IMG/VR virus record: IMGVR_UViG_3300009422_000040 | Location: 1 to 25,865 of that record | Reading direction: 5' to 3' (one strand) | DNA from: a virus | DNA: 25,865 bases | Shown: piece after piece, positions 3,790 through 16,709 of the stretch | Position numbering within the stretch: the first letter of the stretch is position 1 | Layout of the letters: each line of letters opens with the position of its first letter | The notes under the pieces: generated by a model | Told to the model about the DNA's origin: nothing | The model's database searches: none | What the model saw: only the letters and a program-made list of their open reading frames with translations | Position numbers and translations under genes: made by a program

Positions 3790-5743
3790 CAGGTCCGAGA
3801 CTAAGTCCCATTGGGTCTGGCTCCTGAGCCATAGGACCGCCTGGGATTGCTCCTGCGAGAGCTTGATTTTGGAGTGCTTGTTCAGCTTGTAATCTCTCTT
3901 CAGACTTAATAACTTCGTCGGGATCAATATCTAATGATTGCGCTATATCGCGTAATAATTGATTCCGGTCTACGAGTGCTGCGTCCATAGGGTTTGATAC
4001 AAGCGACAAGAATTGGAGGAGTCGTTGTGATTGCACTTCCTTTTGTACGAGAGCAGTGCTACCTCTCGGGACGATCTTTAGATCACCCTTGGCTTTTTCA
4101 TTAGTTCCAAACTCCATGTTGAAGTGGAATAAAGCCTCTACCATCGGCTCTAACAAAAAATCATCTATATTCTTAATGGTACTTTTCAACGCCACGTTAG
4201 CGGCGCCCATCAACATAGACATGCCCGTTGCAGTTTTATTTAGGCTTTTGGTTTGTTCGCCATGTGTATAACTTGGCAGAGACGTAGTCTCATCAGCAAA
4301 CCGTCTAAACAATTCAACAATCTGGTTAAGCCCATTAGCGTTAGCTATAGGCTGATACCAGCGAACTGCTGGCATAGATCCGTCACCACCTTCACGCAAC
4401 CAGACGCGCCAAGGATGAATGTCTGTCGGGTCTTCCCCGGCAGCTAACAGATCTGTATTTACTTCAACCATTGGACCTGAACTTAACGCGAGGTTATCTA
4501 TCCAGATTCTGGTTGCGGCATTCATTGTGACTTGAGAGTCACGCATCATCCGGGGAACGCCTGTCCCCCAGAACTGGTGCGGGGAACGCTCATACGGAAA
4601 TATATGGTAAGGAACGTCATAGCCACCGATAGGGTTAAGCATGACCTTTAAAACCTTCCCGCCGCACATCCACACGCAAGATGAGAAGTCTTGCGATTCG
4701 TCAGCATCTTCTGGTAACTCTATGCCATGCTCTTTCATCTCATATCCATCAATGCTGCCCCAGTACTCTAGGACTTCAAATCGGTGAGACTCAGAATTCT
4801 CATGAATGCCAGCAATATTCCTGCGGGTACGCTCATGATTTTCTTCGGTGTGGTTACCGTTGCGGTTGTTCTTTAATAGGTACTTAACCATCGAAGCATC
4901 AAACCCCGGCAAATCCATCAGTGCTCTGAACTGTTTGCGGGTTAATACATGCCGACGAAACAGCCCATCACAATCCCTGAGAGATGTGCAATATGGATCT
5001 GGGTAAAGATCAAAAATTGAAACACTTTCCACCTCTGGCGCAGCCTGCTCTATTTGAGCTAATGCAAAACTTGTTTGCCCTGTTGTGGGGTCGGTTATTT
5101 TTGAATAACTTTGCTTTCGATCAATACGGACAGTGCCTGCCTTAATGGCACCACTTCCGAATATGCAAGCTTCTAGCATGCTTTCTTTGAGCTTCTGCTC
5201 TGCATTAGATTCTTGAAGCTGATCTTGAATGACCGTAGACATCTCTTCGGCTGCTTCACGCGCTATCTTTTTTTCAATACTCAAAAACTCGTCTTCAAGT
5301 TCTTGCATTCGTTGAGCAATCAGATCTTCGTTTTGAGATGGGTCCATGCCACTAGCCATAGCAATCTGCTGCGCGGCAGCTTCTCTGATCTTCATCATTT
5401 CCATTGGATCGATCTGAGGTATAGCTGTTGGCTCTACGGCGAAGTATGCATCGCCGTGTTGGAATAGAAGGTCGATGATTCTGCTGTAAGCAGCCATGAC
5501 TTTAGTGCGGGTGAGTCCGACAAAAACTTTTGATCTAGCGCCAGACTCGTTAAGCCTTGCTAAAACGTCAGGCTCGTACATTCCCTGAAATTGACGCAGA
5601 TCTTTGATCCACTGATTTTCAGTTTCTTTTCTAGCGTCTTTATATTCTTGAAATGTAGATGACAGGCGTGAACCTAAGTTCAGCAACTCTTGCTCTTGCG
5701 TCCCGTCAGACGCTTCTATCACTTCAAACTGGACTTCACTCAT
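3782..5743 (-). CDS. portal protein
   Basis: 653 aa, a large portal of the P22/SU10 podovirus class. An N-terminal helical region (NLGSRLSSTFQEYKDARKE, then RSKVFVGLTRTKVMAAYSRI) leads to a clip/wing region with YWGSIDGYEM and PYHIFPYERSPHQFWGTGVP, then the stem and long helices including SQVTMNAATRIWIDNLALSS and an ATGMSMLMGAANVALKST segment. The dodecameric ring is the DNA entry channel and docks the terminase. Its ATG follows the large-terminase stop without a gap (TAGATG), so the two are coupled. The C-terminal tail is Q/P/G-rich (QALQNQALAGAIPGGP). Length and order with terminase and scaffold make the call firm. Confidence 0.9.
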   Translation of the reverse strand: MSEVQFEVIEASDGTQEQELLNLGSRLSSTFQEYKDARKETENQWIKDLRQFQGMYEPDVLARLNESGARSKVFVGLTRTKVMAAYSRIIDLLFQHGDAYFAVEPTAIPQIDPMEMMKIREAAAQQIAMASGMDPSQNEDLIAQRMQELEDEFLSIEKKIAREAAEEMSTVIQDQLQESNAEQKLKESMLEACIFGSGAIKAGTVRIDRKQSYSKITDPTTGQTSFALAQIEQAAPEVESVSIFDLYPDPYCTSLRDCDGLFRRHVLTRKQFRALMDLPGFDASMVKYLLKNNRNGNHTEENHERTRRNIAGIHENSESHRFEVLEYWGSIDGYEMKEHGIELPEDADESQDFSSCVWMCGGKVLKVMLNPIGGYDVPYHIFPYERSPHQFWGTGVPRMMRDSQVTMNAATRIWIDNLALSSGPMVEVNTDLLAAGEDPTDIHPWRVWLREGGDGSMPAVRWYQPIANANGLNQIVELFRRFADETTSLPSYTHGEQTKSLNKTATGMSMLMGAANVALKSTIKNIDDFLLEPMVEALFHFNMEFGTNEKAKGDLKIVPRGSTALVQKEVQSQRLLQFLSLVSNPMDAALVDRNQLLRDIAQSLDIDPDEVIKSEERLQAEQALQNQALAGAIPGGPMAQEPDPMGLSLGPVA

Positions 5744-7324
5744 CTAATATCCTGCAACCGCATCAATTGATTTGAAGCGTTTTTGAATAATATTTGCCCT
5801 TGGTCGGGGCATTGATGCAAGTCCATGCAAAGCAATAGCAAAAGCCATTACTCGGTCATCATAACACCCTGACTGAGAATTAAAAGACCCTTTATCATCA
5901 ATGACATACGTCCGTAATTCGTTCACAAGCTCTTGATCCGCAATGCCAGATTCACCCTGTCTGAGTATCGCTGCAAGGTTGTCAATAATCAGCGGTTTGG
6001 TTTTTGAAGTGGTAAGAAAGCCTCCGCGTTTTGTTAGCTTGTCACCGTAAGCGTTGTCTACTGAGGACTCTACAAACAGATTGGGATAGCCTATTTCCTG
6101 CATCCTTCTCAACGTAGTCAGTCCGTGGTTGTTACGCTCAACAATGACGTAAGCGTTATTGAATCGCTGACCTAACTCTTTGACTACATTACCCCACTCA
6201 AACGGATCTATATGCCCGTGCCAACAAGCTACTTGCCTGCCTAACGAATCCAGAACTTGAGCGCAGGAGTAGTCTCCGTATGACAGACCCTCCGCCACAT
6301 CCACTCCAATACAATAAGATTCGTCTTGCGATGGTGGATACCACTCCTTGTAAGGACCGTGAGAGTGACTGGACAGTGCGCCGTTTCTGAAGTCCCCACG
6401 GAAGTCATGGGTGTAACACTCTGACTCAGCACTTCTTAACGCGGAGTCTTCAACGAAACATCTACCAGATGTAAGGAAACTTTCTAAAGGGTTGCTTGGA
6501 TACTCTTGTTTGAAAAGGTCAGTCCCACCTAGCTCATCAATTTTTGCGCGGCGGAAACACAACTGGGCATCGCTGAGATTATACATCTGAGCAATCTTGT
6601 ACTCTTCTGGAGTAGCCTCAAAATAAGGGCTTGGCTTCCTTTGGTATTCGGGCATCCAAAACCAAGGGACAAAACAAACTACCCACTCTGTCTCTCCGCG
6701 CAAAGACTTCATGCACTGATCATAGAACCAACCACCAGCACCGTTAGCAGTGGATTCTAGAATTACTTCTGAACCCTGACCACCCACCGTTTGGAGTAAG
6801 CCAGCGACTATGTCCGCTCCCTGCGGATAGAAGGCTACTTCTGATCCGTGGACAAACCTATTGGTCTGACCTCTACCTGTTTGAGTTGACCGGGCTGTAC
6901 CAACTCTGTATCGGGAGTTGAGACCGTCAAATGCAAGCGTCTGCGCGGACTGCGACGAAAGAGGTGGCTTAAAAGCGGGGTGAGGTACATTTTCATAAAA
7001 ATGCTTAACCATGTTAAAGATCGAGTTAGTCGATTCTGCAAGGTGTGATAGGACGAAGGCGTTGGCATTACGGGTTTGAGTGATCCTCCAAAAGTATCGC
7101 CCTTCGACATAGGTGCTAATGCCTACCTGTCGGGCTTTTAAACATAAAGCTCTGATTCGACCAGTCTCTTTAAGCTGGGTTTCTAACTGCTTATGGACGG
7201 CTACCTGCCCAGGATTCAGCACAAAGGGTTTAACCTCACCCTCTTTAGTAATTACTTTAAGAATTTTTTCAGCGTATAACGGGAAATCTGCTTTTAAAAT
7301 TCTAGCGGCGTCTTCAATTTTCAT
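5744..7324 (-). CDS. terL: terminase large subunit (ATPase/nuclease)
   Basis: 526 aa. The ATPase domain has a Walker A-like KARQVGIST (residues 63-71), a Walker B region FVHGSEVAF (157-165) with acidic E162, and a coupling motif LESTANG (189-195). The RNase H-like nuclease domain shows GVDVAEG (D341), VIVERNNHG (E396) and YDDRVMA (D489/D490). It pumps DNA into the prohead through the portal and cuts concatemers. It is coded immediately before the portal and overlaps the upstream HNH-like gene by 11 bases. All expected catalytic acids are present, so it should be active. The small subunit is not adjacent but about 2.8 kb upstream. Confidence 0.93.
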   Translation of the reverse strand: MKIEDAARILKADFPLYAEKILKVITKEGEVKPFVLNPGQVAVHKQLETQLKETGRIRALCLKARQVGISTYVEGRYFWRITQTRNANAFVLSHLAESTNSIFNMVKHFYENVPHPAFKPPLSSQSAQTLAFDGLNSRYRVGTARSTQTGRGQTNRFVHGSEVAFYPQGADIVAGLLQTVGGQGSEVILESTANGAGGWFYDQCMKSLRGETEWVVCFVPWFWMPEYQRKPSPYFEATPEEYKIAQMYNLSDAQLCFRRAKIDELGGTDLFKQEYPSNPLESFLTSGRCFVEDSALRSAESECYTHDFRGDFRNGALSSHSHGPYKEWYPPSQDESYCIGVDVAEGLSYGDYSCAQVLDSLGRQVACWHGHIDPFEWGNVVKELGQRFNNAYVIVERNNHGLTTLRRMQEIGYPNLFVESSVDNAYGDKLTKRGGFLTTSKTKPLIIDNLAAILRQGESGIADQELVNELRTYVIDDKGSFNSQSGCYDDRVMAFAIALHGLASMPRPRANIIQKRFKSIDAVAGY

Positions 7325-8113: not shown

Positions 8114-8237
8114 CTGCGGACTTCTTCTTTGCAAAAATCTTGTCGTAGTTATCAGAAAACTTTTTAGTATTTGTAGGGCGGCGTAGATCACCCTTGCTAC
8201 CTAACTTCTCGCGATGGTCGCAACTCTTTTTCTTCAT
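8106..8237 (-). CDS. 43-aa basic phage protein
   Basis: It starts MKKKSCDHREKLGSKGDLRR and ends FAKKKSADG. The gene has an ATGA overlap with the preceding 82-aa gene and overlaps the DUF5675 start by eight bases, leaving no gap, which strongly suggests it is real despite its size. The CDHREKLGSKGDLRRP core is the kind of short conserved peptide found in phage head-module operons. It has a Cys and His near the N-terminus and a lysine-rich C-terminus. Function is unknown; nucleic-acid binding would fit the charge. Confidence 0.6.
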   Translation of the reverse strand: MKKKSCDHREKLGSKGDLRRPTNTKKFSDNYDKIFAKKKSADG

Positions 8238-8482
8238 TTGTTCTTGTACCCCTTTTTAGGGGCAGGAGCTTTTTTAGACACCGGCTTTTTATTCTTAGGT
8301 TTTTTGCTTCCATAGTTCATCGCTTTCTCCTTTGCTGCTTTGCCTAGTTCTTCTATATGGAACAACCGCCGACTTGATGAAGTGTGCTTCGCTCCTGAAT
8401 GGACCTCTCCGTTTGGCATCTTATGAGAGCCGCCCTCATGTAGAGACCCGTCTTTGAAAAAATGTCCGACACCTTTTGCCAT
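8234..8482 (-). CDS. 82-aa lysine-rich phage protein
   Basis: A His/Gly-rich N-terminal half (VGHFFKDGSLHEGGSHKMPN, then GEVHSGAKHT) is followed by a short helix (LFHIEELGKAAKEKAM) and a highly basic tail of about 25 residues rich in KKP and KKA. It is encoded in a run of four small basic genes upstream of DUF5675 and linked to the next by ATGA. The HFFKDG and MPNGEVHSG pieces are recognisable as a small phage family but I know of no assigned role. The basic tail suggests binding to DNA or to the acidic scaffold, which is inference. Confidence 0.6.
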   Translation of the reverse strand: MAKGVGHFFKDGSLHEGGSHKMPNGEVHSGAKHTSSSRRLFHIEELGKAAKEKAMNYGSKKPKNKKPVSKKAPAPKKGYKNK

Positions 8483-8492
8483 CTCGTTAACC

Positions 8493-8747
8493 TTATTTAG
8501 TTGATTTAGCCCCTGAGCATTTCCAACGCTTTCGGCTCAAGTTGTTAGGGGTGTTGGGGTCGTTCTGCTTTTCTTTCGATAACCGCTTCTTAATTCCTAG
8601 TGATCGAGCACAATACGAATTACCTTTGCCTGTTCCGGGCTTTACTCTTTTCCCGCCATCAGCAGCTTTGCCAGCTTGCCCGTAGGAAACACGTTTGCCT
8701 GACGCAGTAACCTTGACCTTGGCTTTACCCTTACGAGGCGTAGCCAT
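8493..8747 (-). CDS. 84-aa basic phage protein with SYCARS motif
   Basis: A lysine-rich start (MATPRKGKAKVKVTASGKR) leads to the conserved GKGNSYCARSLGIKKRLS, then NDPNTPNNLSRKRWKCSG. Small proteins with SYCARS and NDPNSPNxLSRxRWxC blocks occur in many marine podo- and myoviruses and are of unknown function. Two Cys residues are kept at the typical places. The start overlaps the stop of the previous 44-aa gene as TAATG. Expression with head genes suggests a virion or packaging-associated DNA-binding role, but nothing in the sequence proves it. Confidence 0.65.
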   Translation of the reverse strand: MATPRKGKAKVKVTASGKRVSYGQAGKAADGGKRVKPGTGKGNSYCARSLGIKKRLSKEKQNDPNTPNNLSRKRWKCSGAKSTK

Positions 8748-8937: not shown

Positions 8938-9483
8938 TCAATATTTAACTTTGGGGTTGGATATCTGTGGAGTTTCAAACTCCTCCCTAAACGCCTCTAA
9001 ACCCGCTCTCAGGTCACTGCCCATTGGCAGGTCATATCTGTCCCAGTTCTTCATTGTCGGCAAGTCAGGGTCTTGTGCGTAGATATAGCCACCTATTACT
9101 TGGTCAAACCGGGATACGTTGTGCCACTTGTCAAAGTCACGCTTCTCTAAACGCTCTTTTGGTATATCAAACTTGCCAGTTTCGGGGTTTGGTATATTTC
9201 CAGAAACATAATCGTAGGATTTTCGCGTCCAATCCATGTAATCACTGTCCGCCATAGCAGTGTCCATTAACGTCTTATGCCGTTCAGGATCTATATCCTT
9301 CAATAAGTGTATGGATTCCGCCGCAATCATCTTGTCCCTAGCAGCGCCCTTGTATAAAGCCTCGTTAATAAGGATCGTAGGCTTGCCTGTAGGGCTGTCA
9401 TCCCCCCGTAACGTCTCAGAGTGACCTTCGTTTATGGTGCCTATCTCAACACCTGACAATAATCTGTTCCGTATATTTGGCAT
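8938..9483 (-). CDS. conserved phage protein of unknown function (181 aa)
   Basis: The protein is acidic and soluble, with no transmembrane segment. A notable stretch is GKPTILINEALYKGAARDKM followed by IAAESIHLLKDIDPERHKTL, which looks like a helix carrying an ESIHLL motif reminiscent of, but not matching, zinc-peptidase helices. The C-terminal part (FDQVIGGYIYAQDPDLPTMK, then DLRAGLEAFREEF) is a common ending in phage proteins of this neighbourhood. It lies alone between the HTH gene region and the small basic genes, with short gaps on both sides. I do not recognise a function; a degenerate metallopeptidase fold is only a possibility. Confidence 0.65.
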   Translation of the reverse strand: MPNIRNRLLSGVEIGTINEGHSETLRGDDSPTGKPTILINEALYKGAARDKMIAAESIHLLKDIDPERHKTLMDTAMADSDYMDWTRKSYDYVSGNIPNPETGKFDIPKERLEKRDFDKWHNVSRFDQVIGGYIYAQDPDLPTMKNWDRYDLPMGSDLRAGLEAFREEFETPQISNPKVKY

Positions 9484-10921: not shown

Positions 10922-10950
10922 TTGCCTGCCACGATCTTCTGCGGTATAAG
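10922..10950 (+). promoter_or_regulatory. predicted sigma-70 promoter of the accessory operon
   Basis: TTGCCT (10922-10927), 17 bases, then TATAAG (10945-10950). It lies 47 bases before the ATG of the first plus-strand gene, which has AAGGA seven bases upstream. It sits in the divergent gap that also must hold the control region of the packaging operon. The hexamers match the consensus moderately. Confidence 0.5.
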
Positions 10951-10997
10951 ATATAAACCGGGGTGACATACACCTCTTTTATTGCAAGGATGCAAAC

Positions 10998-11723
10998 ATG
11001 GATACACTTTTAAAATACCTCGAAGCAGCACGCGGCATTGCCGCCGTCAACCCAAAACACCAAAAGCTGGTCAACCGATTAGCGGTTGCTGACCGAAAAG
11101 TTGATTTTCACGTCGACGCAGCCGCTTTAGCAGAAGAAGGCAAAGGGTATGGAGAGTTCGATGCGGAGCAACAAGCCGCAGCGAAGAAGCACTTGCGAGC
11201 CGAAGAGAAGTGGTTCGGCGTGGTTCAGGAAATCGAGCAGCAATTGCCCAAGCGAGAAATTGCAAACACCTACAAGCAACTGCACGCCAACATATTTGCG
11301 GCTGGTCGCACAGACGATGAACTTAAAGAATCCATGGACGATGAAATCACCATTCGCGTGACCAAAGAAGGCACTACCGCCAAGGAAGTTGAATCTTACC
11401 TCCCAAGCAACTTCCGGGTCGACGCAACGGTCCAGAGCTGGATCATTGTCAAAGGCTTCAACAATGCTGGCTGGACCGCCGAGGGCTATGTAATTCCTCG
11501 CCTTGCCAGCGGCATGATTCGCGCCGTCATTGAGAGCAACCCCCGCGAGCGCTTGAATGATCGCCTATACATCGCCGCTGACAACCTCTTTGTCGCACCT
11601 GAACTCGATTACGAACAATCGCAATTTCGCCTCGAGTCAGCACGCTATGCCTCTAGCTTAAGAATGTTGCACAACCGACTCGCCAAGATCAAAGCCACCC
11701 TGAATTCGGAGGGTCAGTCATGA
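10998..11723 (+). CDS. unrecognised 241-aa early protein
   Basis: A soluble, charged protein with no signal peptide or membrane segment. The N-terminal half is helical and Ala/Glu/Lys-rich (HVDAAALAEEGKGYGEFDAE, then QQAAAKKHLRAEEKWFGVVQ). The middle (EITIRVTKEGTTAKEVESYL) is more beta-like, followed by GFNNAGWTAEGYVIPRLASG. It opens the plus-strand operon and its stop overlaps the next start (ATGA). I recognise no family. Position as the first gene of a tight operon that also carries ArdC suggests an early function in host interaction, which is inference only. Confidence 0.7.
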   Translation: MDTLLKYLEAARGIAAVNPKHQKLVNRLAVADRKVDFHVDAAALAEEGKGYGEFDAEQQAAAKKHLRAEEKWFGVVQEIEQQLPKREIANTYKQLHANIFAAGRTDDELKESMDDEITIRVTKEGTTAKEVESYLPSNFRVDATVQSWIIVKGFNNAGWTAEGYVIPRLASGMIRAVIESNPRERLNDRLYIAADNLFVAPELDYEQSQFRLESARYASSLRMLHNRLAKIKATLNSEGQS

Positions 11724-11911
11724 ACATCGCTCTCCACATTTTCACAATCGTGTTTGGATTTTTCATGCTCTTGTTCGCTGCATTCGTGCAGCAGGCTGGC
11801 TTCATTTCCACAGGTCTCTGGGCGCTGGTGGCAGCGCTTTGGTTCATCAGCTTCAACGCTCAGGCAATTCTCATCGCACGCCACCTCTACCCGCTGGAGG
11901 ACGGCTCATGA
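11720..11911 (+). CDS. small two-helix membrane protein
   Basis: 63 aa: MNIALHIFTIVFGFFMLLFA is the first hydrophobic segment and GLWALVAALWFISFNAQAIL the second, with a short AFVQQAGFIST turn and a cytoplasmic-like polar C-terminus (ARHLYPLEDGS). GGAGGGTCAGTC precedes the overlapping ATGA. It should sit in the inner membrane. A holin cannot be excluded, but early-operon placement argues for superinfection exclusion or a similar membrane function; neither is shown. Confidence 0.65.
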   Translation: MNIALHIFTIVFGFFMLLFAAFVQQAGFISTGLWALVAALWFISFNAQAILIARHLYPLEDGS

Positions 11912-12117
11912 AGACGCTGAAGCACACCCTTCAAAACGGTGTTGAGCTTTCCGCGCATGCCGGACCCGACGGAATTCACTTCGTGGGTTCTTCCACCGGA
12001 GAGCATTGGTTGCACCAAAGCAGTAGCCGCGCCCGAGTCTGGATGCACTGGCAAGGCTATTGCTCTTCAGCCGAGGAGGCGTATCAGCGCCATTTGGATC
12101 GCAACATTTCTAACTGA
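11908..12117 (+). CDS. unrecognised 69-aa protein
   Basis: It starts at the ATGA overlap with the membrane-protein gene (MKTLKHTLQNGVELSAHAGP). It is rich in His and Trp (STGEHWLHQSSSRARVWMHW, then QGYCSSAEEAYQRHLDR). GGAGG sits eight bases upstream. The frame is open further upstream to 11839, but that start would lie inside the membrane-protein gene, so the shorter form is preferred. No domain is recognised. The Y-C-S-S-A-E-E-A-Y-Q end looks like a small conserved phage ending. Confidence 0.6.
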   Translation: MKTLKHTLQNGVELSAHAGPDGIHFVGSSTGEHWLHQSSSRARVWMHWQGYCSSAEEAYQRHLDRNISN

Positions 12118-12120
12118 TGA

Positions 12121-12170
12121 GGCTGGTTGGTCACCAGCCGAAACGCCGTCAGGCGTCTTAGATAACCAAC
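12121..12170 (+). promoter_or_regulatory. structured leader: two hairpins and a possible pseudoknot before the 68-aa gene
   Basis: GGCTGGT/ACCAGCC form a perfect seven-pair stem (12121-12139), and ACGCC/GGCGT a five-pair stem (12143-12156). The first stem's loop side (GTTGGT, 12126-12131) can also pair with ACCAAC (12165-12170), directly beside the AAGGA of the next gene. There is no T-tract, so this is not a normal terminator; control of translation is plausible. Confidence 0.45.
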
Positions 12171-12181
12171 AAGGAAAAGTC

Positions 12182-12388
12182 ATGGTTCAGGAAATAATCG
12201 TAACAATCAAAAACCAATACGGCATAGAAGTCGTTTACCCAGTGTGCGAGCACGCAAAGTTGTTTGCTCGCATCGCCAACACCAAAACCCTTACGCTGGA
12301 CGTGATCAGCACAATTAAAGCGCTTGGCATAGCCATCACAGTTGAGCAAAAGTCTCCGCTTGCTCTCGCCCTTGGAGGTGCACGATGA
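12182..12388 (+). CDS. conserved small phage protein (68 aa)
   Basis: It reads MVQEIIVTIKNQYGIEVVYP, then VCEHAKLFARIANTKTLTLD, then VISTIKALGIAITVEQ. The pattern of an antiparallel strand, VYPVCEHAKLFA, NTKTLT and IKALG is that of a small conserved protein found in gammaproteobacterial phages and mobile elements, often beside anti-restriction genes; its function is unknown to me. AAGGA is nine bases upstream of the ATG, and the stop overlaps the ArdC start (ATGA). The 64-base gap before it is the largest in this part of the operon and folds into hairpins. Confidence 0.7.
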   Translation: MVQEIIVTIKNQYGIEVVYPVCEHAKLFARIANTKTLTLDVISTIKALGIAITVEQKSPLALALGGAR

Positions 12389-13260
12389 AGATCAACTACA
12401 AAGAAATTAACGAGCAAATGCTTGCCGAGATGGAAACCCACGGCGCGAACTGGATCAACCCAATGCGATCCAGCGTACCGGTTGGCATTCCACGCAACGG
12501 GATCACCAGCAACCGCTACAACGGAGTCAATGTCTGGCTGCTAGGACTGACTGAATCCTACTGGGCGACCTACGCTCAGTGGGAGTCGAAGGGCTACCAA
12601 GTCGCCAAGGGATCGAAGGCAACCACCATTGTCTTTTTCAAGCAGACCAAGGTTAAGGATCGCGATTCGGGAGAGGATAAAACGATCCCGGTCATGAAAA
12701 ACTTTCGCGTCTTTCGGTCTGACCAACTCGACCCAAGCGTCAAGGTGTTCGAGGAGCCTGAGAGAATTATCTACGCCGACGAGACTCACGCTAACGCAGC
12801 GGTAGAGGCGTGGGTTGCCAATACCGGCATCGAGGTCAGAACCAACCCGGACGGCAAAGCCTTCTATTCGCCAATGCATGACCTGATCAGCATTCCTCCA
12901 CGCGAAGGTTTCACCGCTACTGAGACCAGCACCGCCAGCGAAACGAGAGACTCTACGCTGCTGCATGAACTCGCCCATGCCACGGGTCACAAGTCTCGAC
13001 TGGATCGCAAAATGGGCAGCGGTTTCGGCAGCGATGGATATGCCAGAGAGGAGTTAGTCGCTGAACTTGCTGCGACGTATCAATCCGCACTTCTAGGCGT
13101 GTCTGCCGCTCCAAGAGCCGACCACGCAAAGTACCTCAACAATTGGATCAAGTGCCTAAAGGACGACCACCGGGCGTTTTTCAGGGCTTCAGCCCTAGCT
13201 CAAAAAGCAGTGGAGTGGATTGAGAAACAGCAACCAGTGAGTGCGGAGGTGGCGGCATAA
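12385..13260 (+). CDS. ardC: ArdC-type anti-restriction protein with zinc metallopeptidase domain
   Basis: 291 aa. The N-terminal ssDNA-binding ArdC domain (DUF1738-like) spans about residues 5-115: NWINPMRSSVPVGIPRNGIT, YNGVNVWLLG and the GYQVAKGSKATTIVFFK strand. The C-terminal zincin domain carries LLHELAHATGH (HELAH at 194-198) and YAREELVAELAA, which supplies the downstream acidic ligand region. In plasmids ArdC binds single-stranded DNA and protects incoming DNA from restriction. A shared stop/start (ATGA) links it to the preceding conserved gene. All zinc residues are present, so it should fold as a metalloprotein. The substrate of the peptidase domain is unknown. Confidence 0.9.
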   Translation: MKINYKEINEQMLAEMETHGANWINPMRSSVPVGIPRNGITSNRYNGVNVWLLGLTESYWATYAQWESKGYQVAKGSKATTIVFFKQTKVKDRDSGEDKTIPVMKNFRVFRSDQLDPSVKVFEEPERIIYADETHANAAVEAWVANTGIEVRTNPDGKAFYSPMHDLISIPPREGFTATETSTASETRDSTLLHELAHATGHKSRLDRKMGSGFGSDGYAREELVAELAATYQSALLGVSAAPRADHAKYLNNWIKCLKDDHRAFFRASALAQKAVEWIEKQQPVSAEVAA

Positions 13261-13280
13261 GTTAAGTCTTTACCCTACAG

Positions 13281-13341
13281 CCCATTCGGAATGAGTGGGT
13301 TGGTGGGTGAAGATTTTTTCCCGCCAAAATAAAAATAAGGA
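13281..13341 (+). repeat. leader repeat, copy 1
   Basis: A 61-base leader immediately before the ATG at 13348. It contains the hairpin CCCATTC/GAGTGGG, then GGTGAAGATTTTTT, then CCAAAATAAAAATAAGGA, which ends in the ribosome site. It is about 80 percent identical to 13512-13571. Confidence 0.8.
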
Positions 13342-13347
13342 TATAAC

Positions 13348-14028
13348 ATGAACAAACACGAAAAAGCATACCGGGCGCTCTGGATGACCCAATACCAAAG
13401 CGCTCTCAGCCAGCGCGGCGACTACCAGCCGGGACGCATTTGCTGGGACACCGCGACTCACTTCTGCGTGTCTGGCAAAGCTCCAACGGCAGCAGCGAGT
13501 GAAGCCACTGACCCATTCGTCTTGAGTGGTTTAGGGGGTGAAGATTTTTCGCGCCAAAATAAAAATAAGGAGATCATAGAAATGGAAATGGATAAAAAAT
13601 CAATAGACATAGCAGTAGCAAAATTTGTTTCGTGCCACAAAGCTGACGCATTTGAGATAGACCACACAGAAGGCGATTACTACGGCTCTGTCGCCGGTTA
13701 TTTGACTTTAGAGGGTGAACCTACTGGTGAGCTTGGGCGGATGCACATTTCGATTAGACCGGACAAGCACAAAGACGGCTTGAACGAAACAGTCGAGTGG
13801 TATGAAGACACCTACCAGATCGCACACTTTCGTTTGCCTTTTGCAGACCGAATCACCCCTGAAGACCACACTCCTGAGATTAATTTTGATCCTAATTTTT
13901 ATATCTGCATTGATCGCATCAAAGAACTTAGAGCCAAAGGCTACTCCGACATTTCGCTTGATGAGGTGGTCGAGGGCGTGATCGTTGACTCAGTTGCCAT
14001 TGAAGATTATCTGGAGAACGAGGCATGA
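13348..14028 (+). CDS. 226-aa fused reading frame: small conserved N-terminal part joined through a leader repeat
   Basis: The first ~55 residues (MNKHEKAYRALWMTQYQSAL, then RGDYQPGRICWDTATHFCVS) look like a separate small conserved phage protein. The frame then continues with no stop through the second leader copy (translated as DPFVLSGLGGEDFSRQNKNK) into the protein starting at 13582. AAGGA lies six bases before this ATG. Either a true fusion is made, or the first gene lost its stop when the leader and second gene were inserted. The leader-coded linker has no sign of selection as protein that I can see. The C-terminus overlaps the next start (ATGA). Confidence 0.55.
   Translation: MNKHEKAYRALWMTQYQSALSQRGDYQPGRICWDTATHFCVSGKAPTAAASEATDPFVLSGLGGEDFSRQNKNKEIIEMEMDKKSIDIAVAKFVSCHKADAFEIDHTEGDYYGSVAGYLTLEGEPTGELGRMHISIRPDKHKDGLNETVEWYEDTYQIAHFRLPFADRITPEDHTPEINFDPNFYICIDRIKELRAKGYSDISLDEVVEGVIVDSVAIEDYLENEA
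13512..13571 (+). repeat. leader repeat, copy 2
   Basis: Second copy of the 60-base leader, lying inside the long frame. It keeps CCCATTC, GGTGAAGATTTTT and CCAAAATAAAAATAAGGA, with an AAGGAG ribosome site nine bases before the ATG at 13582. Differences cluster in the hairpin loop and one stem side. Confidence 0.8.
13582..14028 (+). CDS. 148-aa protein from internal start after leader repeat (unrecognised)
   Basis: MEMDKKSIDIAVAKFVSCHK begins after AAGGAG and nine spacer bases, a better ribosome site than that of the upstream ATG. An ATG at 13588 is an alternative. The protein is acidic and probably alpha/beta: YYGSVAGYLTLEGEPTGELG, then MHISIRPDKH, and a C-terminal helix ISLDEVVEGVIVDSVAIEDY. 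I recognise no family. It may be the main product here, with the 13348 frame a longer or decayed version. Its stop overlaps the next start by ATGA, so it is coupled to the rest of the operon. Confidence 0.6.
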   Translation: MEMDKKSIDIAVAKFVSCHKADAFEIDHTEGDYYGSVAGYLTLEGEPTGELGRMHISIRPDKHKDGLNETVEWYEDTYQIAHFRLPFADRITPEDHTPEINFDPNFYICIDRIKELRAKGYSDISLDEVVEGVIVDSVAIEDYLENEA

Positions 14029-14462
14029 TAAACATGAAAAATGATGTGAAACCAATAAAGCTGATCCCAGCAGTCGCCAAGACCCTGACCAAGACGATGA
14101 TCGAGAAGGGCAACCCCGACTGCTTCGCCGAGCTAACCGCTCTGGCGCGACTGTTCGGAGTGGACTTCGAGTCGCTCCCCAACGGCGTAAAGCGCGAGAT
14201 ACCACTGAGATTCACCGATGGGACCGAGACCGTGATCAGATTCTACCGAGTGAACGGGAAGGGTGGAAGGAAGGACCGCCGATATAACATCCCAGCCAAC
14301 GTGCTGCGAGAGCAGGCGTCAATTGGGGACAAAATAGCGTTCTCTTTCGTAATCGACAATACAGGCCAGTCCATTCTTTGCGTAAACGTCGCCCGCCAGC
14401 CCAAGTTGGCTCACCTTGCTACCGATGATCTAAATGTCACCGCTTTGGAGGTGCAGTCATGA
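14025..14462 (+). CDS. unrecognised 145-aa protein
   Basis: It starts MINMKNDVKPIKLIPAVAKT. The N-terminal 55 residues are helical (TLTKTMIEKGNPDCFAELTA). The C-terminal 90 are beta-rich: REIPLRFTDGTETVIRFYRV, a basic GGRKDRRYNIP and REQASIGDKIAFSFVIDNTG. This last block resembles DNA-binding pseudobarrel folds (B3/EcoRII-N-like) in its basic loop and GD-x-I strand, but that is a weak similarity. Start and stop are both in ATGA overlaps. A DNA-recognition or anti-restriction role is conjecture. Confidence 0.62.
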   Translation: MINMKNDVKPIKLIPAVAKTLTKTMIEKGNPDCFAELTALARLFGVDFESLPNGVKREIPLRFTDGTETVIRFYRVNGKGGRKDRRYNIPANVLREQASIGDKIAFSFVIDNTGQSILCVNVARQPKLAHLATDDLNVTALEVQS

Positions 14463-14662
14463 AGCCAATTAAAGTGAGGATTGTTGACGATGGAATCCAC
14501 GGGCGGGTTTATCCGCGATGTGAAACGTCTGAAAAATTAGTTTCCCTCATAGGTCACTGGATGCCTGCGGAGGACATGTTGAGTGTGGACGGATGGGTTC
14601 CGATCAGCTACCTCGATCAAATCGAAGGGCTGGGCTTTCAGGTCGAAGAGGTGCAGTCATGA
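14459..14662 (+). CDS. unrecognised 67-aa protein
   Basis: MKPIKVRIVDDGIHGRVYPR, then CETSEKLVSLIGHWMPAEDM, then DGWVPISYLDQIEGLGFQVE. It is probably a small beta/alpha domain with no membrane segment. TTGGAGGTGCAGTC precedes the overlapping ATGA, and the same GAGGTGCAGTCATGA reappears at its own end, so it and its upstream neighbour share the C-terminal residues EVQS. The gene behaves like a cassette bounded by identical junctions. Function unknown. Confidence 0.6.
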   Translation: MKPIKVRIVDDGIHGRVYPRCETSEKLVSLIGHWMPAEDMLSVDGWVPISYLDQIEGLGFQVEEVQS

Positions 14663-14901
14663 CTAAGAAAAGACACCTTTTTCCGCAAAGCTTCTCCTTC
14701 GACTTTGAGGTTATGACCAAGGAATCGTGGGACTCTGTTGATGCGAATCAGCTTCGACAAGCCCTCGTTTCGAGGCTCGCCACCTTGTCCGATGAGCAAC
14801 TGCTTGGCGCTTGTTATCGCGAAGAGGAGGAGCCTGATAATTTTTCAGGGTGGGATCGTCATCTGCTAGAGCGGTTTCATCCCGATCTGGAGGTAGAGTG
14901 A
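14659..14901 (+). CDS. unrecognised 80-aa acidic protein
   Basis: It starts MTKKRHLFPQSFSFDFEVMT after the repeated GAGGTGCAGTC junction. The central part (QLRQALVSRLATLSDEQLLG) is helical, and the end is acidic (EEEEPDNFSGWDRHLLERFH). Many DNA-mimic and anti-defence proteins are small and acidic, but this is only a compositional remark. The stop overlaps the following start as TGATG. A longer upstream frame to 14593 lies inside the previous gene and was not used. Confidence 0.58.
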   Translation: MTKKRHLFPQSFSFDFEVMTKESWDSVDANQLRQALVSRLATLSDEQLLGACYREEEEPDNFSGWDRHLLERFHPDLEVE

Positions 14902-15611
14902 TGACGGACGAAAATTATAAAATAAATTTAAACACAGCCTCTTGGGAGGCGACCCGACACTTGCTTGCATTGGACCAAAATTTCGTAGGGACTGAAGACT
15001 ATCTTGGTCTAGCTTATTTTTGGAAATCTTGCAGCCTCAAATGGTGCTTGCGCGAAGCAACCGTAGCCAAACGCAAAAAGATCCACAGGCTGTGGCTGCT
15101 TGAAAATCTTCCGATGACATGCGAAACCCGGCGACACTGGGAGCTTGTCGCCCAAGTCTTGAAAATTAAAATCCCTAAAAAAATCCCTGAGAAGTGCGCC
15201 GACCACGCATCAATTGCAGAATGCTTTCGGCATGAGCAACACCAAGGTTTGACCGATTCAGAAAGCGAGCATGAAGACGAGTTGAGCTTTTTCTTGGAGA
15301 TTCTGAACAGCCACCACCACAACAAAGTTCAAAGGAGTATTGAGCGACTGAGCAGACAGAGCTATCTGGAGGAAATGCAACGCTTTTGCGAGGAATATGG
15401 ATTCCACAACATATATGCTGAGTGGATCACGGAAGCCCGCTATAATGCTGAGGGAGACGATCAGAAAGAATTCGATGAAAAGCTCAACTCTTGGGGGGTG
15501 AACCTGATGTTCAAGAACGATGATCACTCAAAATTTTTGAGGGTCATTGAACTTTGTAAAAAATACGCCCCACAAAAAAAATCCCACAACGTGATCACGG
15601 AGAATAGATGA
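14901..15611 (+). CDS. unrecognised 236-aa helical protein
   Basis: It starts MTDENYKINLNTASWEATRH with GGAGGTAGAGTG directly upstream. The protein is mainly alpha-helical and charged: HLLALDQNFVGTEDYLGLAY, KKIHRLWLLENLPMTCETRR, an acidic SESEHEDELSFFLEILN and a C-terminal LRVIELCKKYAPQKKSH. No membrane segment, nucleotide-binding motif or HTH is evident. It overlaps its neighbours at both ends. It is the longest unrecognised protein in the second half of the accessory operon. A tandem-helical-repeat fold is possible. Confidence 0.65.
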   Translation: MTDENYKINLNTASWEATRHLLALDQNFVGTEDYLGLAYFWKSCSLKWCLREATVAKRKKIHRLWLLENLPMTCETRRHWELVAQVLKIKIPKKIPEKCADHASIAECFRHEQHQGLTDSESEHEDELSFFLEILNSHHHNKVQRSIERLSRQSYLEEMQRFCEEYGFHNIYAEWITEARYNAEGDDQKEFDEKLNSWGVNLMFKNDDHSKFLRVIELCKKYAPQKKSHNVITENR

Positions 15612-15835
15612 TTATGGCTCTAATGATCGCAGGTAACATGCCTGTCCCCAGCCGGGGACAAGCGATAGCGAAAGAAGAATACGCCCGTACAGCTTTGAAG
15701 ATGCAAGTGAATGACTTCATCAACACTAAAGATAAAAAGACAACCACCGGGTTGTTGAGGGCGTTGGAACGAATAGATCGAATGGGCGCCCAACGCACCA
15801 TAGACGGGAGTCTTTGGGTTTGGAGAATTCAATGA
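15608..15835 (+). CDS. unrecognised 75-aa protein
   Basis: It begins ATGATTATGG in an ATGA overlap, with GGAGA a few bases upstream (MIMALMIAGNMPVPSRGQAI). It is helical and basic: AKEEYARTALKMQVNDFINT, then KDKKTTTGLLRALERIDRMG. A short strand ends it (GSLWVWRIQ). It could be a small DNA-binding or adaptor protein, which I cannot show. The next gene overlaps its stop by four bases. Confidence 0.58.
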   Translation: MIMALMIAGNMPVPSRGQAIAKEEYARTALKMQVNDFINTKDKKTTTGLLRALERIDRMGAQRTIDGSLWVWRIQ

Positions 15836-16050
15836 GCACTAACGCAGAATTTAATGAGTTGCGGGGGGCTGGCGGCTTCGGCGTTAAAGAGGCTGCCAAG
15901 ATGATGGACGCAAACCTTAACACGGTAAAGTCTTGGGTGAAGCCGCCGGGGAGTGCCGGGTCTGCCCACATGCCAACCTACGCACTACGGTGCTTTAAAC
16001 TGGTGCTCCTACTGCGTTTGCATGGGATTTCAGAATCTCAGCCGGGATAA
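15832..16050 (+). CDS. small helix-turn-helix-like protein
   Basis: 72 aa from the ATG at 15832 (GGAG seven bases upstream). GGFGVKEAAKMMDANLNTVK, then SWVKPPGSAGSAHMP, then ALRCFKLVLLLRLHG has the look of a helix-turn-helix (VKEAAKMMDANLNTVKSW) followed by a dimerisation helix, as in small phage regulators. It ends the plus-strand operon, and its last 56 bases overlap the converging nuclease gene on the other strand. It may regulate one of the two operons that meet here, which is inference. Confidence 0.6.
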   Translation: MSTNAEFNELRGAGGFGVKEAAKMMDANLNTVKSWVKPPGSAGSAHMPTYALRCFKLVLLLRLHGISESQPG

Positions 16051-16423
16051 GGAAGACCGCCTTTGGATGCCGATCATCTCCACCTTGGATTTGAGTCGGC
16101 ATGATCCGCTCGATCAACACGCACGCCTTTAGCTTTTCAGAACTAATCCAAATATTCTCTTCCCCGGTGACAAACAGCCAGTGAGTTGCCTCGCTAACCG
16201 AAATGCCAGACGGCTTATTGTGAAAATATTCTAATACAATATTGCCGGTCTCTAAAGAACGGGGATCAAACTTTACCTCTATAGTGGTGTCCGTTTCTGG
16301 AATGGCAATATCGAATCGACTGTCCTTTCCGAACGTCATGTAAGCGTCGTGGAAAAGGGGTAGCAATTTACTCAGCCATTCGCGCTCTACAGCTTCGCCC
16401 CGCTCAAGATCATCAAACCACAT
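15995..16423 (-). CDS. PD-(D/E)XK nuclease-like protein
   Basis: 142 aa from the ATG at 16423 (AGGT upstream). The core is E13, then SRFDIAIPETDTTIEVKFDP with D38 and E49-x-K51, followed by TGNIVLEY: the order of the PD-(D/E)XK fold seen in phage Holliday-junction resolvase-like and restriction-type nucleases. SEATHWLFVTGEENIWI is the usual next strand. It overlaps the preceding 98-aa gene by 11 bases and the converging HTH gene by 56 bases. All catalytic residues are present. The substrate (junctions, flaps or host DNA) cannot be read from the sequence. Confidence 0.72.
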   Translation of the reverse strand: MWFDDLERGEAVEREWLSKLLPLFHDAYMTFGKDSRFDIAIPETDTTIEVKFDPRSLETGNIVLEYFHNKPSGISVSEATHWLFVTGEENIWISSEKLKACVLIERIMPTQIQGGDDRHPKAVFLIPAEILKSHANAVGAPV

Positions 16424-16709
16424 CTTTTTTACCTGAATGCCAAATCGCGATGACGCCGCTCTCAACGAAGCCCTTCATGTTTGGTGGCTCCGTGATGTCG
16501 GGGATACTGGCTATTGCCTCTTGACGGTCAAGCTTAGTTGGCAGATTGAGGATCGCCCTGGGCAGGAAGTACCAGACGGTGCTCTCGGCGCAAGCCCACC
16601 ATTCTTTAGGTAGTTGGCGTCGAATCTCCTCTATGACCGTTGGGTAATGTGTTTTTTTTGCCGCCGCCTCACATATTTTATGAACTTGCGTGAAGTTTCT
16701 AATCTCCAT
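16413..16709 (-). CDS. unrecognised 98-aa protein between two nucleases
   Basis: MEIRNFTQVHKICEAAAKKT, then VIEEIRRQLPKEWWACAEST, then VWYFLPRAILNLPTKLDRQE. It is mostly helical with an unusual Trp-rich stretch (EWWACAESTVWYFLP). No membrane or catalytic motif is convincing. It overlaps its upstream nuclease gene by 11 bases and the downstream nuclease by 11 bases, so all three should be made together. A structural partner of one nuclease is a fair guess. Confidence 0.62.
   Translation of the reverse strand: MEIRNFTQVHKICEAAAKKTHYPTVIEEIRRQLPKEWWACAESTVWYFLPRAILNLPTKLDRQEAIASIPDITEPPNMKGFVESGVIAIWHSGKKDVV

Follow-up and report, generated by a model that had tools for sequence, protein, structure and literature searches.

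A small-gene accessory array with ArdC, a predicted B3-fold protein and repeated junction linkers in a marine temperate phage

Results

Organization and setting of the array

The DNA analysed here (the window) covers the whole of IMG/VR virus record IMGVR_UViG_3300009422_000040, 25,865 bases, and is the genome of a small temperate marine phage. The terminases, the portal and the major head protein are encoded on its left side, an integrase, a repressor-like gene, a Sak-type annealing protein and a RecE-type exonuclease on its right side, and a DnaD-like loader, a primase-helicase and a PDDEXK/RusA-like nuclease on the minus strand. Between TerS/terminase and the replication block, and antiparallel to both, lies the subject of this study, an array of 12 consecutive plus-strand open reading frames (ORFs), g1–g12, at 10998–16050 (Table 1). 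It includes a gene for the anti-restriction protein ArdC (g5), and its genes, twelve or thirteen in number, are mostly without assigned function. Nine of the 11 junctions overlap by 1–4 nt, mostly as ATGA, and two are gaps, one of 64 nt before position 12182 and one of 87 nt after ArdC (13261–13347). The first-pass annotation had described eleven or twelve overlapping genes; the operon of 12 ORFs holds, with two of its joins being gaps and with the gene count corrected for the ORF of 226 amino acids at 13348–14028, which probably represents two genes. Third-position substitutions relative to sister contigs supported coding for g1, g3, g4, ArdC, g7 and g9–g12, with many amino-acid changes in g9; g8 had too few changes.

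A minus-strand terminase followed by a plus-strand small-gene array is also found in Greip, MW202496, MW202796 and Hodr. Relatives of the array genes sit in early or non-structural gene arrays rather than in structural or lysis modules; homologues of the latter kind would have counted against the view of the array as a separate accessory operon, which is thus upheld. A contig from Porticoccaceae (L254; L numbers denote comparison contigs) has a different overlapping small-gene array in the equivalent slot (5394–6607, minus strand), with a helix-turn-helix (HTH) ORF at its 3′ end and joins resembling GGAGGTAGCGTGATG. Likenesses of the window's primase-helicase, in a Porticoccaceae bacterium (58%) and Methylomonas (34–35%), are a weak pointer to the host. 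No tRNA was found in the window.

Table 1. Features of the array and its leader (aa, amino acids; nt, nucleotides).
Feature	Position	Strand	Remarks
Predicted sigma-70-type promoter	10922..10950	+	TTGCCT at 10922, 17 nt, TATAAG at 10945
Dyad GGGGTG-ACATA-CACCTC, 5′ leader	10960..10976	+	candidate hairpin or operator
g1, 241 aa, first gene	10998..11723	+	adjoins TerS also in L236 and L247
Linker GGAGGGTCAGTCATGA, 2 mismatches	11708..11723	+	g1/g2 junction
g2, 63 aa, hydrophobic, probable two-helix membrane protein	11720..11911	+	GRAVY 1.27; clean cassette insertion
g3, 69 aa, small family common to other marine phages	11908..12117	+	
g4, 68 aa	12182..12388	+	relatives in pelagiphage Greip, Roseobacter phage CRP-1 and many contigs
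g5, ArdC	12385..13260	+	single-stranded DNA-binding N domain and HExxH metalloprotease domain
Leader repeat copy 1, 54 nt	13281..13334	+	
g6a, what is left of a 61-aa gene that has lost its stop; frame continues into g6b	13348..13530	+	closed ORF in L002 and L008
Leader repeat copy 2, 76% identical	13512..13565	+	left side of inserted segment
g6b, 148 aa, acidic	13582..14028	+	isoelectric point 4.45, net charge -19
g7, 145 aa, stand-alone B3/EcoRII-N-like DNA-binding pseudobarrel (predicted)	14025..14462	+	AlphaFold2 model
Linker GGAGGTGCAGTCATGA, exact	14447..14462	+	homology to L002 ends, homology to L005 begins
g8, 67 aa, acidic, ends EVQS	14459..14662	+	
Linker AGAGGTGCAGTCATGA, 1 mismatch	14647..14662	+	
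g9, 80 aa, acidic	14659..14901	+	72% identity to L005, against 96% for neighbours
Degenerate linker GGAGGTAGAGTGATGA	14889..14904	+	
g10, 236 aa	14901..15611	+	L033 has a separate 89-aa gene equivalent to residues 1–89
g11, 75 aa, basic	15608..15835	+	conserved pair with g12
g12, 72 aa, helix-turn-helix protein, last gene	15832..16050	+	sub-threshold HTH matches; place conserved in six contigs

Junction linkers and cassette breakpoints

Inspection of the junctions demonstrated a recurring linker, GGAGGTGCAGTCATGA, in which a Shine-Dalgarno sequence is combined with a stop/start overlap (ATGA). Copies with at most one mismatch number two in the window, four in L007 and five in L033. The proteins encoded upstream of the linkers are mutually unrelated, and all end in -EVQS or -EVRS because the TGA of the linker overlaps the ATG. 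The same N7 was present in none of 38 comparable GGAGG-N7-ATGA sites from unrelated loci.

Comparison with related contigs placed changes in gene content at these junctions. Homology to L005 begins at the start codon of g8, and that to L002 ends at the linker at 14447, beyond which L002 has a different gene; L002 also lacks g2, the missing part running from one start codon to the next. L007 and L033 share a gene at 97% identity that has a linker at either side, amid differing neighbours; of the eight alignment ends between these two contigs, five fall at linkers, and 6 of 100,000 random placements attained this count. Other lineages have repeated joins of their own, namely CGGAGAGAGAAGATG, present three times downstream of ArdC in L004, and GGAGCAAGACTAATG, present three times up to g7 in L199. 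Judged from these alignments, the array looks assembled from cassettes, with the gene-content breakpoints between relatives at linkers or start codons. Residues 1–95 of g1 correspond to separate small proteins in other marine phages, and the first 89 residues of g10 likewise form a protein of their own elsewhere, a further sign of piecewise assembly. A second repeated join, GGAGGCGTGTAGCAATGA (L033 1876 and 2073; L007 3776), flanks a gene that L033 has and L007 lacks.

ArdC

The identity of g5 as ArdC, the only clear assignment of the first-pass annotation, is unambiguous. The N domain matches PF08401 (E 1.8e-23, residues 4–110) and the C-terminal metallopeptidase PF18818 (E 5.7e-39), the protein matches phrog_7245 (1.8e-66), and residues 5–281 align nearly full-length with residues 10–286 of ArdC from plasmid R388 (PDB 6i89, E 3.1e-41). 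Its HELAH and REELVAE motifs align with H201/E202/H205 and E228/E229 of the R388 protein, leaving the metal site intact. By homology, the protein likely acts in anti-restriction. Since a protease mutant of R388 ArdC was still functional in a conjugation test (PMC7213743), the single-stranded DNA-binding domain may suffice for function. ArdC is gene 1 of Roseobacter phage CRP-804, a gene 1 setting also described as that of an Autographiviridae genome, and in pelagiphage Hodr and other marine phages it lies in an array divergent from the terminase; both positions fit early action. In the sister contig 3300025138 (L218:1623–9032), an ORF of 2469 amino acids contains an ArdC-like zincin stretch with HEIAH near residue 888; it has no Pfam match and is perhaps a polyvalent, virion-delivered protein.

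The predicted B3-fold protein g7

The best conserved member of the array is g7. Its relatives are encoded at 66 IMG/VR loci, covering at least 60 contigs of uncultured viruses, with identity down to 33–42%, in phages that otherwise share little with the window phage; none was found among 84,980 bacterial and archaeal species genomes or among the isolate-phage records searched. The AlphaFold2 model (predicted local distance difference test score, pLDDT, 86.5) gave a best Foldseek match of E 2.8e-4. Structure comparison yielded Z scores of 4.0–9.6 for B3 domains and about 3 for unrelated entries, the highest being to the B3 domain of plant VAL1 (6j9a; Z 9.6, root mean square deviation 3.1, 101 residues), followed among the restriction enzymes by UbaLAI (Z 7.2), the N domain of LlaJI.R1 (Z 7.0) and EcoRII-N (Z 5.3). 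The protein is therefore predicted to be a B3-fold pseudobarrel, and the DNA-pseudobarrel-like candidate of the first-pass annotation, for which structure prediction had been proposed, is borne out by the model. Residues R82, D84 and R86 are invariant over diverse phages; by topology they lie on the hairpin before the second conserved helix (91–98), which would be the DNA-contact arm of B3 proteins. No nuclease domain as in B3-type restriction endonucleases was found in g7 or in its neighbours g6 and g8. In several lineages g7 more often adjoins replication genes, e.g. those for a family A DNA polymerase or an SNF2 helicase.

The acidic protein g6b

The 226-residue ORF probably consists of a broken 61-residue gene (g6a) and a 148-residue gene (g6b). 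It is read as two genes because the 61-residue gene is closed in sister contigs, being directly followed by g7 in L002 and L008, and because g6b starts at an internal ATG that has its own ribosome-binding site and is preceded by the second copy of the 54-nt leader. The stop codon of the 61-residue gene was probably lost upon insertion of g6b. Relatives of g6b occur in at least 13 other contigs and are all acidic, with net charges of -12 to -31 in nearly full-length members, so that the strong net negative charge of DNA mimics of the Ocr/ArdA type is found throughout the family. The model (pLDDT 88.7) has no assignable fold, as the search of the PDB gave no confident match (best Foldseek E 0.34; best Z 6.2, to unrelated chains).

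Other genes of the array and neighbouring genes

Two further points of the first-pass annotation agree with the data, in that g2 is strongly hydrophobic, as was expected of the proposed two-helix membrane protein (grand average of hydropathy, GRAVY; Table 1), and that g8, g9 and g6b are indeed acidic. No evidence was found in support of superinfection exclusion, the other function suggested for the set, and no relative of g2 was detected. Searches of phage and plasmid proteins gave matches of g4 in four isolate phages and none in plasmids; g7, g10, g6b, g1, g3 and g11 had no match in isolate phages. NCBIfam and PADLOC returned no useful match for the array genes. A kinship of g4 and g8 had been considered from a YPxCE motif seen by eye, and the pairwise match was too weak to claim it (E 0.01).

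Convergent with g12 is a minus-strand gene at 15995–16465. Its protein of 156 amino acids has sub-threshold likeness to a DpnII/MboI-type nuclease and also to phrog_13596, and the L254 gene at the matching position has the D...DVK motif of PD-(D/E)XK nucleases. Upstream of the array on the minus strand, between the terminase and TerS genes, two small and very basic proteins (8234–8747; net charge +17% and +25% of residues) are strongly conserved in sister contigs. In the 181-residue ORF at 8938–9483 (minus strand) only 20 residues match the sister contig, and nucleotide homology breaks at 8996–9448, which is another variable spot.

Promoter and leader

The sister contig 3300001589 has TTGCAC and TATAAG separated by 17 nt at the place of the predicted promoter, i.e. 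the hexamers and the spacing are kept while the spacer sequence has diverged, and this supports the promoter. A consensus promoter/terminator scan did not call the site at 10922 and gave no more sites than in shuffled sequence. The single promoter of the first-pass annotation has the conservation in its favour and the consensus scan, taken alone, not; on that conservation, one sigma-70-type promoter would drive the array. The leader dyad is kept in the sister contig as GGGGTGAGATACACCCC, with a U-to-C change that improves pairing. As a shared operator it was rejected, no second copy being present elsewhere in the window, the vicinity of the repressor included.

Discussion

A variable accessory operon and its rival explanations

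The array is probably an early, dispensable accessory operon in a slot of variable content that separates the packaging module from the replication module. A single sigma-70-type promoter would drive small genes that are translationally coupled, and the array would grow, shrink and swap genes via recombination at the short repeated linkers, a route suggested by the breakpoints. The Sak-type annealing protein and the RecE-type exonuclease that the phage itself encodes would be the likely agents. Sak is a Rad52-like protein. Rad52-like phage recombinases act on short or diverged homology and shape the mosaics of temperate phages (PMC3945230, PMC2327257). We also infer a selective reason for the linkers: as Shine-Dalgarno sequence and stop/start overlap are both contained in them, an inserted gene would be coupled for translation at once. 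ArdC would shield incoming or replicating DNA from restriction via single-strand binding, as its homology suggests, its intact metalloprotease domain having an uncertain role. Given the predicted fold, g7 would be a DNA-binding protein without nuclease, presumably a regulator or DNA-metabolism factor rather than a restriction blocker, and the remaining genes would be candidates for host takeover or counter-defence. Taken as a whole, this explanation of an operon with coupled genes, linker-based gene exchange, anti-restriction ArdC and a B3-fold g7 is considered fairly probable.

Several points weigh against it. As a single copy the 16-mer occurs in at least 120 viral contigs, and therefore single copies mean nothing and the case depends on its recurrence in one and the same array and on the breakpoints; the breakpoint test is itself partly self-fulfilling because identical linkers extend the alignments. 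The insertion of g6b departs from the linker, its left edge lying inside g6a at the second leader copy. Early expression of the array is probable from its position and by analogy. PF08401 (ArdC-N) was found in 4 of 50 g7-bearing contigs, three of the four being close kin of the window phage, versus 2 of 50 comparison contigs, which were picked by a single 16-mer copy and are not a random sample. With this count, the guilt-by-association analysis proposed in the first-pass annotation showed no enrichment of ArdC near g7; the presence of ArdC therefore does not make its neighbours counter-defence genes, and the blanket counter-defence inference for the array is weak. It is accordingly judged unlikely that the array is a dedicated counter-defence island in which most or all genes inhibit host defences. 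ArdC does stand in the middle of the array, the g6b family is as consistently acidic as DNA-mimic inhibitors, ArdC shares a one-strand array with g6b in L225 and lies near a g1-type gene in L249, and near-identical phages differ in which genes they carry, a pattern that arms-race genes would produce; but, besides the missing enrichment, g7 adjoins replication genes in other phages, PADLOC, Pfam, PHROG and NCBIfam give no such link for genes other than ArdC, and the fold of g6b has no confident match to a known inhibitor.

The linker might instead be a translation signal kept by selection on initiation, with gene exchange being incidental. Its Shine-Dalgarno core, its position abutting the start codon, its restriction to non-structural genes and the like placement of the Start-Associated Sequences (SAS) of mycobacteriophages (PMC3203893) would all agree with this, whereas the hexamer GCAGTC outside the Shine-Dalgarno part is conserved equally well, junctions of other genes in the array lack the linker, and both the homology breakpoints and the cassette bounded by two linkers coincide with it. 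We regard this alternative as rather unlikely. Still less credence is given to the idea that g7 descends from the DNA-binding domain of a B3-type restriction enzyme and counters restriction by masking sites. The fold matches the recognition domains of EcoRII, UbaLAI, LlaJI and NgoAVII, the nuclease is absent and the operon is shared with ArdC, yet the closest matches by Z are plant transcription factors, the invariance of R82, D84 and R86 over diverse phages would not be expected where every host enzyme recognizes a site of its own, and g7 shows no association with ArdC; such an origin and role are quite improbable.

Beyond the window phage, we tentatively suggest, as a possibility that falls short of a likely one, that an open platform for gene exchange is kept in several lineages of marine phages, i.e. 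arrays of takeover and counter-defence genes in which lineage-specific linkers (GGAGGTGCAGTCATGA, CGGAGAGAGAAGATG in L004 and GGAGCAAGACTAATG in L199) would serve both as recombination site and as translational coupler, with the phage-only B3-fold protein as common passenger or regulator. If working as proposed, the linkers illustrate a way for small phages to exchange genes one at a time with the operon left intact, and their sequence would be a search handle for takeover and counter-defence genes that are as yet unknown. For studies of DNA binding, an obvious subject is the B3-fold protein, which lacks a nuclease and occurs widely in uncultured marine phages, and the acidic proteins of the g6b family are DNA-mimic candidates open to testing.

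Comparison with known systems

The early region of T7-type phages (immediate-early) and the ninR region of lambda are made of small, closely packed and mostly dispensable genes, one of which, in T7, acts against restriction. The present array has other genes and is situated between the terminase and replication modules of a temperate phage. ArdC of plasmid R388 (PDB 6i89, 6sna; PMC7213743) has the same two-domain build, HExxH motif and downstream EE of the metal site, but is borne on a conjugative plasmid, whereas the phage ArdC is encoded within an array of small genes of unknown function. The predicted pseudobarrel of g7 resembles the B3 domains of EcoRII-N, UbaLAI, LlaJI.R1, NgoAVII and the plant B3 factors; in contrast to these, the domain is the whole protein, without nuclease and phage-borne.

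The nearest precedent for the linker is the SAS of Cluster K mycobacteriophages, with the consensus GGGATAGGAGCCC (PMC3203893). Both are short non-palindromic repeats with a Shine-Dalgarno core that abut the start codons of non-structural genes, the core of the linker lying within a few nucleotides of them, and the SAS repeat, too, sometimes overlaps the upstream stop codon. The linker, GGAGGTGCAGTCATGA, differs from the SAS consensus in sequence, has fewer copies, takes in the ATGA overlap and lies at breakpoints of gene swaps, and no extended inverted repeat was seen with it. Short direct repeats mark a gene insertion in Cluster O mycobacteriophages (PMC4351075), and 'conserved boundary sequences' are a proposal made for the joins of phage mosaics, at most of which they are said to be unidentifiable (PMC3029335). 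As in those cases, a gene is found here between two copies of a short repeat, of which relatives without the gene have one; unlike them, the linker doubles as translational junction, and several joins of a single operon have it. What differs here is that a SAS-like repeat and a cassette-insertion repeat are united in one operon.

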